A DNA stretch of 30,565 bases from a virus: positions 1 to 30,565 of the IMG/VR virus record IMGVR_UViG_3300042924_000915; one strand, given 5' to 3'. Each line of letters starts with the position of its first letter. Position 1 is the stretch's first letter. A program made the translations under genes and the position numbers. The notes under the pieces are model-generated. The model searched no databases and was not told the DNA's origin. It saw only the letters and a list, made by a program, of their open reading frames with translations. This document shows positions 24,217-26,962 of the stretch, in pieces.

Positions 24217-24402
24217 ATGATGACTGTTGAGCAGATCAAGAAACGGCTTGAGGACGCCAACCTCAAGCGAGTGGCCGAGAATGCTGGCGTGCATCCAGCC
24301 ACGGTCTACAGGTTTATGCAGGAGGATTCCAAGCCCCTGTACGAGACGGTCAAGGCGCTGTCGGATTATTTGACACGGCAGGAGGCGGCATTGCATGGCT
24401 GA
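24217..24402 (+). CDS. Small helix-turn-helix regulator (61 aa)
   Basis: Two adjacent ATGs (24217, 24220) follow AGAGGTG; the first is used. The product MMTVEQIKKRLEDANLKRVA, ENAGVHPATVYRFMQEDSKP, L-Y-E-T-V-K-A-L-S-D-Y-L is a bare HTH: LKRVAENAG as the first helix and HPATVYRFMQ as the recognition helix, of the XRE/LacI-like kind. It is Cro-sized with no dimerisation or cleavage domain. As the first gene after the divergent promoter pair it probably autoregulates and switches between the two operons. Its end overlaps the next gene by 8 bases. Confidence 0.78.
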   Translation: MMTVEQIKKRLEDANLKRVAENAGVHPATVYRFMQEDSKPLYETVKALSDYLTRQEAALHG

Positions 24403-26449
24403 CCTCTCCAACATCCTTGGCGGTCCTTGGTCTCCACCACCTGAGAAGAGGGTTGACGATCCAGAGACACAGCTCCTCAATGCCATCCTTGATGCGGGGC
24501 TTGCAAAGCCAGAAAAGCCCATTGAGATCGATGGCAAGATGCATCGATTTAACAGTGGAACCAAGGGCAGCAAGGGTTACGATAAATCTGGATGGTACAT
24601 TGCCTATCCCGATGGCGTTCCATCCGGACGCTTTGGTTGCTGGCGCATTGGCATCGATCATGTCTGGCGCTGTGATGTAGGACGCAGGCTCACAGCCATT
24701 GAGGAAATGGCTCATGCAAGGCGCGTTACTGAGGCCAAGGCAATGCGTGACGCGGCCTTGGAAAAGCAGCATGAAGTCGCGGCCAACACGGTCGAGACAA
24801 TCTGGAGCCAAGCCCAGGCTGCACATCAAGACCATCCATACTTAGCACGCAAAGGCATCCAGCCCCACGGCGCACGTATCACAGGCGATGGCAGGCTGAT
24901 CGTGCCCCTGTTTGACAAGGATGGCCAGCTTTGCACGCTGCAATACATCGACAATGAGAAGGGCAAGCTATACCATCCAGGCGGCGAGGCCGGTGGGAAA
25001 TTTTGGATGGTAGGCTCACTGGATGAGCCTGGCGTGCTTTATGTGGCCGAAGGGTTTGCCACCGCAGCTACCATTCACGAAACAACCGGGCGGCCCTGCG
25101 TGGCTGCATTCAGTGCCAGCAGCTTGGTGCCAGTAACTGGCAGTTTGCGCGAAATGTTCGGAGCAGCTCAGGATATTGTGATCGTCGCAGACCATGACAA
25201 GCATGGCGTCGGGCAAAAGTATGCCGACCAAGCCAGCGCGAAGTTCGGGGCCAGGGTGATTATCCCACCTATCGAGGGCATGGACGCCAATGATTATGCA
25301 CAAGCTGGGCACGATTTGGTAGGTCTTCTGGTACAGCAAACCGGCACAGCCGTGATTGACAAACTGCAGGTGGTGTTTGGTGACCAGCTCGGCACCGACT
25401 ACGAGGCACCCGACGAGCTGGTCGAAGGCTTGATGACCATTGGCAGCTCGGTGGTTGTGTACGGCGACAGCAACTCCGGAAAGACCTTCTGGGCGCTATC
25501 AGTGGCAACGGCGATCGCTACCGGAGAGGACTGCTACGGTCGCAAGACCGATCCCGGACTGGTGGTTTACTTGGCCAGCGAGGCACCTGCCAGCATCCGT
25601 TCTCGTATGCAGGCCATCAAGAAGTTTCACGGCTGCAGCTTGGAGAACCTGGCGATGGTTCCGGTCCCGATGAATTTTTATGTCGGAGACCAGGATGCCC
25701 ATGATGTGATTGAGCTGGTGCGAGCCATCGAGATCGCCAAGGGTAAGCCGGTGCGACTGATTATTGGCGACACGCTGGCCAGGATGAGCGCAGGGGCCAA
25801 CGAGAACAGCGGCGAGGACATGGGGCCAGTCATGGCCAGATTTGACCAAGTGGCCACCGCCACGGGCGCTGCCATGATGATCATCCACCACAACGGCAAG
25901 GACGCTGCCAGAGGCGCAAGGGGTTGGTCAGGCATCCGTGCCCACATCGACACCGAGATCGAGGTCTCCGAAAAGGATGGCAGTCGGTCTGTAACGGTCA
26001 CCAAGCAGCGCGAGCTGCCCAGTAAGGGCGAGACGATCTACTTCCGTCTGGAGGTGATCGAGATGGGGATCAGCAAATTTGGCTCACCTTCCACCACTTG
26101 CGTGGCCGTTCCAGATCAGGAAGCAAATGACACGAAACCCCACAAAAAACCCACAAAACACGATGAGAATGTGCGCACAGTTGAGCGTGCTTGGTGGGCA
26201 TCAGGTGCCGAAGAGCGCGAGGGTTTTCCCTACGTCAGCAGGTCGGCGATGCGTGAACTGCTGGTCAAAGATGGGGCGACTGAGCGCACCGCCAAGAACA
26301 AAACCGAGGCATCCAGATCGGGTTCAATCATCGAACAATTGCTCAATGCAGGCACTTTGGAGACCTTCGAACATGGCTGGATTTTCAGCAACAAGACCCA
26401 GGCGAGCGCAATGCTAATGCAGAAAAATGCTCCCAAAAATCGCCCCTAA
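24395..26449 (+). CDS. Primase-helicase fusion (TOPRIM plus RepA/DnaB-like ATPase)
   Basis: A 684-residue protein. The N-terminal part (about 40-100, RFNSGTKGSKGYDKSGWYIA) is a substrate-binding region of the kind found in TOPRIM-type phage primases. TOPRIM: LYVAEGFATAA with E219, and IVIVADHDKHG with D266/D268. The helicase/ATPase domain has Walker A GDSNSGKT at 357-364, RLIIGD at 454-459 and HHNGKD at 499-503, typical of AAA_25/RepA-like hexameric helicases. The end (about 600-684) looks like a small winged-helix or primase-interacting domain. It would prime and open the replication fork. The repeat region at its 3' end is a plausible origin. The first repeat copy encodes its last two residues and stop. 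Confidence 0.87.
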   Translation: MADLSNILGGPWSPPPEKRVDDPETQLLNAILDAGLAKPEKPIEIDGKMHRFNSGTKGSKGYDKSGWYIAYPDGVPSGRFGCWRIGIDHVWRCDVGRRLTAIEEMAHARRVTEAKAMRDAALEKQHEVAANTVETIWSQAQAAHQDHPYLARKGIQPHGARITGDGRLIVPLFDKDGQLCTLQYIDNEKGKLYHPGGEAGGKFWMVGSLDEPGVLYVAEGFATAATIHETTGRPCVAAFSASSLVPVTGSLREMFGAAQDIVIVADHDKHGVGQKYADQASAKFGARVIIPPIEGMDANDYAQAGHDLVGLLVQQTGTAVIDKLQVVFGDQLGTDYEAPDELVEGLMTIGSSVVVYGDSNSGKTFWALSVATAIATGEDCYGRKTDPGLVVYLASEAPASIRSRMQAIKKFHGCSLENLAMVPVPMNFYVGDQDAHDVIELVRAIEIAKGKPVRLIIGDTLARMSAGANENSGEDMGPVMARFDQVATATGAAMMIIHHNGKDAARGARGWSGIRAHIDTEIEVSEKDGSRSVTVTKQRELPSKGETIYFRLEVIEMGISKFGSPSTTCVAVPDQEANDTKPHKKPTKHDENVRTVERAWWASGAEEREGFPYVSRSAMRELLVKDGATERTAKNKTEASRSGSIIEQLLNAGTLETFEHGWIFSNKTQASAMLMQKNAPKNRP

Positions 26450-26570
26450 TCGCCCCTCAGTGCCCCTAGGGGCTTTTAGGGGCAAGGGGCAAAAGCATTT
26501 TGAATCTGCCCCTAAACCCCGCCCCTCTCCTACCCCCTTTAGGAAGGGGTAGGGGAGGTAGGGGAGGGGC
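26441..26570 (+). repeat. Phased GCCCCT/AGGGGC repeats: candidate replication origin
   Basis: GCCCCT begins at 26442, 26452 and 26462, exactly 10 bp apart, and the inverted form AGGGGC begins at 26468 and 26478, also 10 bp apart, then at 26485. They meet in the perfect palindrome GCCCCTAGGGGC (26462-26473). A second half follows: AGGGGCA (26485-26491) pairs with TGCCCCT (26507-26513), GCCCCT recurs at 26521, CCTACCCC pairs with GGGGTAGG around 26529-26553, and a 9-bp direct repeat TAGGGGAGG occurs at 26550 and 26559. One-helical-turn phasing suggests cooperative protein binding. Lying after the primase-helicase gene it is a good origin candidate; GCCCCT...AGGGGCTTTT could also act as a weak terminator. 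Confidence 0.6.
26546..26569 (+). other. G-quadruplex-forming motif
   Basis: Four runs of GGGG (26546-26549, 26552-26555, 26561-26564, 26566-26569) are separated by loops of 2, 5 and 1 bases, an ideal four-tetrad quadruplex on the plus strand. It lies at the right end of the repeat region, about 75 bases before the next start codon. Confidence 0.7.
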
Positions 26571-26597
26571 AGATCATGATGCAGAATTTTTTGCTAA

Positions 26598-26628
26598 ACC
26601 CTTTGTGGTTGATGTAAACTCAAAGGGT
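26598..26628 (+). promoter_or_regulatory. Inverted repeat upstream of the small pre-terminase genes
   Basis: ACCCTTTG (26598-26605) and CAAAGGGT (26621-26628) form a perfect 8-bp inverted repeat with a 15-base centre. The centre contains TGATGTAAACT, a weak extended -10, with TTGCTA (26591 area) as a possible -35. It could be an operator over a weak promoter, or a leader hairpin just before the AAGGAG site at 26633-26638. Confidence 0.45.
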
Positions 26629-26644
26629 CTACAAGGAGAAAGCA

Positions 26645-26962
26645 ATGGGCAAAATGTATATGGGGAACATTCCAGATGCCAGCGAAGGCTGGGATGAAAT
26701 GGACAAGTTCATGGACAAGGACAATGTGCAATGGTTGATGTTCAGCAAAAAGCAAGACCACAATCAAGACTGGTGGACTATCAAGATCGCTGCCAAAGGT
26801 CGCGCAAGCACCAAAGCAAATTATTGGCTGGCGATTAATGTCAGGACAGGTCAGCTTGGATTTTCTCGGGATTACGTTTTGATGCGCGAAAACAGACCAG
26901 AGTTGCATTCGCAAATTGAAACAATCTTTAAAACCGTTCAAAGTAAGCAAGCACTAACATGA
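26645..26962 (+). CDS. Hypothetical protein (105 aa) before the terminase genes
   Basis: ATG 26645 follows AAGGAGAAAGCA. The product starts MGKMYMGNIPDASEGWDEMD, then KFMDKDNVQWLMFSKKQDHN, QDWWTIKIAAKGRASTKANY and W-L-A-I-N-V-R-T-G, ending in a helix. It is an alpha/beta protein with many aromatic residues; I recognise no family. Its place after the putative origin and before terS suggests a replication- or packaging-related late role. The stop overlaps the next start as ATGA. Confidence 0.68.
   Translation: MGKMYMGNIPDASEGWDEMDKFMDKDNVQWLMFSKKQDHNQDWWTIKIAAKGRASTKANYWLAINVRTGQLGFSRDYVLMRENRPELHSQIETIFKTVQSKQALT

Follow-up and report, generated by a model that had tools for sequence, protein, structure and literature searches.

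What does an array of short inverted repeats directly behind a replication gene do, and which protein reads it? The question is raised by a virus record of 30,565 bases, which was analysed over its whole length and is called the window here. In it, the hexamer GCCCCT starts at 26442, 26452 and 26462 and its inverse AGGGGC at 26468 and 26478, the two arms meet in GCCCCTAGGGGC, and the first copy spans the last codons and the stop of a primase-helicase gene (CGC CCC TAA, 26441-26449). All this had been pointed out from the letters alone and is borne out exactly, except that the list of copies was incomplete: four further units (AGGGGC at 26485, GCCCCT at 26508 and 26521, and AGGGGC at 26565) bring the total to nine copies in 130 bp. 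The repeats are genuine and greatly exceed chance expectation. None of 200 first-order Markov simulations of the window reached the five copies found in a span of 45 bp (maximum 4), and the nine copies in 130 bp compare with a maximum of 6 for any hexamer in 100 simulations of the same kind. The spacing of 10 bp holds for the five copies originally listed, but AGGGGC at 26485 starts only 7 bp beyond the preceding unit (26478).

These units are arranged in two hairpins. Hairpin A (26442-26490, no strand assigned) is a single interrupted hairpin overlapping the primase stop codon, in which three left units (the first three GCCCCT copies) pair with three right units (AGGGGC at 26468, 26478 and 26485). 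It is followed by an A+T-rich linker (26491-26503, unstranded, 23% GC) and by hairpin B (26504-26574, likewise unstranded), which contains the remaining two GCCCCT copies and the last AGGGGC, ends in the tip CTTTAG and is of a long form, referred to as type 2. Directly outside hairpin B stands the motif GATGCAG (26578-26584, + strand). The minimum free energy of the array is -85.6 kcal/mol as RNA (z -6.2 against shuffles) and -43.1 as DNA (z -5.4), the DNA z values over both strands being -5.4 and -5.1 against shuffles. The segment GGGGTAGGGGAGGTAGGGGAGGGG (26546-26569, + strand) is also a canonical G-quadruplex motif, and the C-rich arms of the array have similar motifs on the other strand.

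Does this layout belong to one phage or to the gene that it follows? Near-identical DNA among annotated phages was searched for, with no match. Eighty relatives were collected by protein search, and when the gap after the primase stop codon was compared, nearly all of them showed the two-hairpin layout directly past it, with a differing next gene. In the reverse direction, a search of 2.9 million viral contigs with the DNA pattern of hairpin A only gave 38 loci, of which 37 encode the primase-helicase beside the array (primase identities going down to 38-44%), the contig of the 38th ending inside the array; at three of these loci the array lies a few hundred bases onward, past a small inserted gene. 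A scan of genome contigs gave mostly distant homologues, among them those of a Methylomonas MAG (L124), with an AGGGCG array, and of a Latescibacterota MAG (L126), with a GGTACA/CGGTAC array; the scan for relatives by C-terminal alignment used the alignment of one class. Full-length relatives with sufficient sequence downstream number 171. In 165 of them the gap directly 3' of the primase-helicase contains a single hexamer four or more times, in both orientations, usually as the two-hairpin layout, and the median is 8 copies per locus (control windows usually contain 2-4). The sequence-only reading had named relatives with the primase-helicase and no repeats as the evidence that would speak against it, and only three of the 171 are of this kind (L252, L265 and L274), an outcome that favours the reading; the other exceptions are a degenerate array (L233) and two arrays lying beyond a small gene (L077 and L082).

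Throughout the relatives, it is the architecture that stays. The location of hairpin A is matched, a GG..CAAA linker is found in 75 of 108 loci, GATGC[A/G/T] stands at the site of the outer motif in most relatives, and the tips of hairpin B are mostly CTTTAG, CTATAG, GTATAC or CTTAAG, regardless of the repeat unit. The structured layout is retained where the sequence diverges, and the basal stem of hairpin B, which does not include the repeat unit, covaries (19 stem types in 60 rows, with a mean of 5.25 paired bases against 2.2 with mismatched partners). Because the layout is kept without its sequence and the basal stem covaries, selection seems to act both on the recognition of the unit by sequence and on the pairing inside each arm. 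Very stable hairpins directly past a stop codon, together with this covariation, would also suit an RNA element at the 3' end of the primase transcript, be it a terminator, an mRNA-stabilising hairpin or a small RNA. Nonetheless, there is no conserved T-run after either hairpin in the relatives, on which ground the terminator was rejected, and the Rfam matches are at chance level, being spurious miRNA-type matches far below the curated gathering scores. A riboswitch or leader of the downstream gene was rejected as well, since that gene varies and the array is constant.

The type 2 form of hairpin B is common to the window, L007, L013, L065, L072, L118 and others. It accompanies an inserted small gene (26645-26962 in the window) and the absence of a DnaA box, some of the relatives that have it carry operator-like CCTATAGG repeats, and the region 26504-26962 as a whole has the look of a cassette that can be exchanged. 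Within the AGGGGC family, one subclass (L099, L105, L107 and L117) has a second, GCACAATGTGC-like repeat past hairpin B, perhaps an operator.

What does change from phage to phage is the hexamer, and all the copies in one array change together. The gap after the primase contains GGGGACA/TGTCCCC repeats in Salicola phage CGphi29, GGTACA/TGTACC in Idiomarinaceae phage 1N2-2 and GGTTCA/TGAACC in Alteromonas phages PB15 and XX1924, and a scan with the divergent alignment added the units GGTAAC, CGTATC, GGGTCA, GGACAA, GGGACA, AACCCT, CGTACC, ACGGAC, GGGAAC, CGGAAC and AGGGGG. The 108 non-redundant loci bear 21 top-hexamer labels, which we estimate to amount to about 15 unit classes once the shifted labels of one repeat are merged. 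Pairing alone, as an RNA element would have it, fails to explain one hexamer recurring across different stems and switching in all of them together. The spacing is not constant either: 10 is the commonest value in the AGGGGC class, followed by 9, whereas it is about 7 in the GGTAAC class, 8 in CGTACC and 6, 8, 10 or 12 in the GGGTCA relatives. One-turn phasing with cooperative binding on the same face of the helix, which had been put forward as the key feature of the array, is therefore no property of the family, and the table of spacings across classes rules it out as a rule.

If the unit varies, something has to read it, and the first place to look is the gene that the array overlaps. The primase-helicase (684 aa, 24395-26449, + strand) comprises a Toprim primase, a RecA-fold hexameric helicase and a C-terminal winged helix, and is proposed to be a self-encoded initiator. 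Pfam places Toprim_3 at residues 215-304 and AAA_25 at 326-504, the Toprim EG(Y/F)ATA motif is present in the alignment as EGFATAATI, the helicase domain is of the RSF1010 RepA type by profile (1g8y, E 2.9e-14), and the best fold match of the full-length model is the T7 gp4 primase-helicase. The C-terminal domain (residues 588-678, 26156-26428, + strand), proposed to bind the iterons, was modelled by AlphaFold2 with a mean pLDDT of 89.7 and the element order H-E-H-H-H-E-E-H, so that we assign the predicted fold as a winged helix with confidence; it had no significant fold match in the PDB, and the P4 domain was absent among the 50 matches listed. The second helix of its helix-turn-helix is formed by residues 630-637 (ERTAKNKT), and the proposed recognition helix with the loop that follows is ERTAKNKTEASR (residues 630-641, 26282-26317, + strand). 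The helicase domain (residues ~310-560, about 25322-26074) occurs in two types, with the P-loops GDSNSGKT and GPSGGGKT, on shared primase domains, which implies that exchange has affected the helicase too, without regard to the repeat unit. An uncultured phage protein annotated as Prim_Pol (BFVD A0A6J5RWR5), a different primase type, shares the C-terminal winged-helix domain (39% identity, E 2.6e-9), which suggests that the reader domain moves between enzymes.

Several natural pairs point to this domain. The enzymes of L101 and L205 are 96-100% identical over residues 1-550 but only 68, 34 and 23% over the three final blocks of 50 residues, and their arrays are made of AGGGGC and GGTAAC, respectively; conversely, L204 and L227 have cores of about 60% identity, a nearly identical C-terminus and an identical repeat unit. 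The helicase parts of L348 and L261 are a full match, but the units are AGGGGG and GGTAAC. On a finer scale, L250 and L256 are 94% identical. Over the last 70 residues their only differences are V/Q, A/S and T/P, located within the recognition helix or immediately behind it, and the units of the two arrays, GGGAAC (CGGAAC) and GGTAAC, are one base apart, while KKLKPGSADQ goes with CGTACC repeats in L254 and KKMKPGYPDQ with CGGACC repeats in L251. Controlling for the core, the correlation between array and protein similarity peaks at 0.69 at residues 616-635 of L101, inside the C-terminal domain, and drops to 0.2-0.3 over the final 30 residues, the part whose codons are nearer to the array. Pairs with the same unit are best told apart from pairs with different units by three residues, in the window R641, K636 and N635.

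Could the repeat and the C-terminal domain simply travel together by DNA linkage, without any recognition between them? They are adjacent, and some events, such as that separating L101 from L205, resemble one crossover. However, the helix region keeps a partial correlation of 0.65 with the array given core and tail (reached in 0 of 500 permutations, whose maximum was 0.18, with phylogeny only partly modelled), and the tail between helix and array, although nearer to the array, has one of 0.00 given core and helix. This argues against linkage alone, as do the near-identical C-terminal domains whose differences are confined to the reader and which go with different repeats. We regard linkage as largely refuted by these comparisons and, as a full explanation, scarcely credible. 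For 52 new loci, predicting the unit from the nearest training helix was correct in 52 of 52 and from the nearest core in 45 of 52, but the tail also scored 52, so this result speaks for the domain and not specifically for the helix. The same correspondence bears on some of the exceptional loci. L077 has an AGGGGC-type helix (NKIDPSR) and, as that helix predicts, AGGGGC repeats, one gene downstream. In L252, whose helix predicts a GGTAAC array, the primase stop is followed by an ORF that presumably resembles a host acyltransferase; since the contig continues into this ORF, the junction is doubtful, and we suspect a provirus edge or a chimeric contig. Overall, as judged from the coevolution, the repeat specificity appears to match the C-terminal DNA-binding domain of the primase-helicase.

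The neighbouring genes offer another candidate reader. A small Cro-like HTH gene (24217-24402, + strand, phrog_18104) overlaps the start of the primase gene, Sak4- and SSB-like genes run in the opposite direction to it, and terminase genes lie downstream. With an HTH gene just upstream and the array situated in the 5' leader of the next gene, the repeats could be an operator through which the primase-helicase or the HTH protein regulates the replication operon or that next gene. Nevertheless, the downstream genes differ while the array stays, and in several relatives that keep it the HTH gene is replaced by unrelated genes, for which reason the HTH protein was discarded as the binder of the repeats and its gene is dispensable for explaining their specificity. 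The copy number (median 8) and the DnaA boxes also fit an origin better, and we hold it to be very unlikely that the array is an operator in place of an origin; autoregulation may exist in addition to origin function.

Across the relatives, the DnaA boxes (TTATNCACA) concentrate at the array: the 250 nt past the stop codon contain 0.65 per locus, whereas most of the remaining bins are close to 0.01. Secondary peaks are seen at -1250, where a site within the gene is conserved, and, in a subgroup, at +500 to +1000. A box is found within 250 nt after the stop in 40 of 108 loci, and in many relatives hairpin A is preceded by tandem boxes and hairpin B is followed by one box. The array of the window has none, and neither does that of any of the 11 members of its class with the type-2 form; among the 77 type-1 members of that class, 45 have a box. 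In the subgroup formed by L036-L040, L048-L049, L055-L056 and L066, no box lies beside hairpin B, and DnaA boxes, often several and in both orientations, occur about 500-1000 bp past the primase stop. GC skew does not help to locate an origin here: a switch near 26500 had been proposed as support, but the minimum in the window is at 24.05 kb, at the point of divergent transcription rather than at the array. Given that the minimum is also at or near such a point in CGphi29 and 1N2-2, and elsewhere in the circular relative MW202867, it coincides with or adjoins the point of divergent transcription in three of four cases and is uninformative.

Since, across the family, the DnaA boxes concentrate at the array and the repeats track the recognition helix, we conclude that the array is very probably the replication origin of the phage, with the adjacent primase-helicase as its own initiator. 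The clustering of the boxes and the tracking of the hexamer by the helix are again beyond what pairing alone explains, and an RNA element as the whole explanation seems very improbable to us. The sequence-only reading had proposed an initiator-binding array or origin beside the primase-helicase, and this core is strongly supported by the comparative evidence, origin function being predicted, while its one-turn phasing and its skew test were not upheld; it contained neither the change of unit between phages nor the domain that would read the repeats.

How might such an origin work? Judging from the coevolution and the fold, the C-terminal winged helix of the primase-helicase would bind the hexamer repeats in both orientations, and, by analogy with SaPI Rep, the two inverted clusters would bring helicase subunits or rings together on the two arms and set their orientation. 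The A+T-rich linker, the palindromic tips and the arms, which could form cruciforms or single-stranded structures, would then open, possibly assisted in many relatives by host DnaA at the flanking boxes (the array of the window has no box). The domain identities suggest that the RepA-like helicase would be loaded and that the Toprim domain would prime. As regards evolution, the sequence pattern indicates that specificity changes by swapping the C-terminal domain together with the repeats, and also by small alterations that affect the recognition helix and all repeat copies in concert, along a mutational path that we infer.

The principle of an initiator that reads its own adjacent origin is known; the present case differs in its enzyme, in its two-hairpin array, in how many specificities it comprises and in its fine-grained natural series. 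According to PMC7581432 (citing Ubeda 2007), the C-terminal domain of the initiator helicase of SaPI Rep and SCCmec Cch2 recognises a short-iteron origin directly downstream of its own gene. By its sequence pattern, the present system resembles SaPI Rep-ori in having a C-terminal recognition domain and downstream iterons. Unlike SaPI Rep and Cch2, which have DUF927 or D5-type helicases (and AEP primases in the SaPIs), it has an AAA_25/RSF1010 RepA-type helicase and joins a Toprim primase and an RSF1010-RepA/T7 gp4-like RecA-fold helicase in one protein. In PLE RepA, from Vibrio cholerae satellites, the DNA-binding domain covaries and is exchanged with the origin, and cognate pairs were tested experimentally (PMC8263062). 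The reader domain covaries and is exchanged with the repeats here too, again as a pattern in the sequences; nonetheless, PLE RepA has an N-terminal RepA_N domain, no primase or helicase and two specificity groups, compared with about fifteen here. The Sulfolobus plasmid pRN1 has a small regulator gene (orf56) and a primase-helicase (orf904) followed by an essential stem-loop, its proposed origin, whose sequence varies while its structure is kept (PMC4234260). Both systems thus have a regulator gene, a primase-helicase and a downstream hairpin element, although pRN1 differs in its AEP primase, its SF3 helicase and an origin without iterons. As described in the same source (PMC4234260, citing Ziegelin & Lanka 1995 and Yeo 2002), the P4 alpha protein combines a Toprim-type primase, a helicase and a winged helix that binds origin repeats. 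The enzyme studied here shares with it the Toprim primase with the EG(Y/F)ATA motif, but its winged-helix fold is predicted and has no detectable match to the P4 domain, and the two-hairpin array lies downstream of its gene, unlike in P4. The helicase of P4 alpha is of the SF3 type and that of the window is of the RecA-fold AAA_25 type (RepA/gp4-like). In this domain the protein is like RSF1010 RepA (profile E 3e-14), gp4 being the top full-length fold match, and to our knowledge neither RSF1010 RepA nor T7 gp4 carries a C-terminal winged-helix origin reader.

Taken together, these phages probably form a family that has a T7 gp4-like primase-helicase with a swappable winged-helix reader and a two-hairpin origin cognate to it, the roughly fifteen iteron specificities being connected through natural domain exchanges and concerted one-base repeat changes. 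No description of this family was found in the open literature, subscription journals being mostly outside the search. One can speculate that the variety of specificities reflects selection for replicon identity, through competition between co-infecting phages, satellites or origin-directed nucleases (such as Odn, PMC8263062). The family also bears on a hard problem: how can an initiator switch specificity in step with about eight copies of its site, when each intermediate should fail? It offers near-identical enzymes with few helix changes and one-base repeat changes, as well as whole domain exchanges, across more than 100 loci, and these natural pairs and exchanges make the question of co-change directly testable with small purified domains. 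If true, a protein-DNA recognition code could be read from these phages, for example Q or V in the helix with GGTAAC or GGGAAC in the repeats, and they would preserve in nature how the specificities of an initiator and of a multi-copy site shift together.
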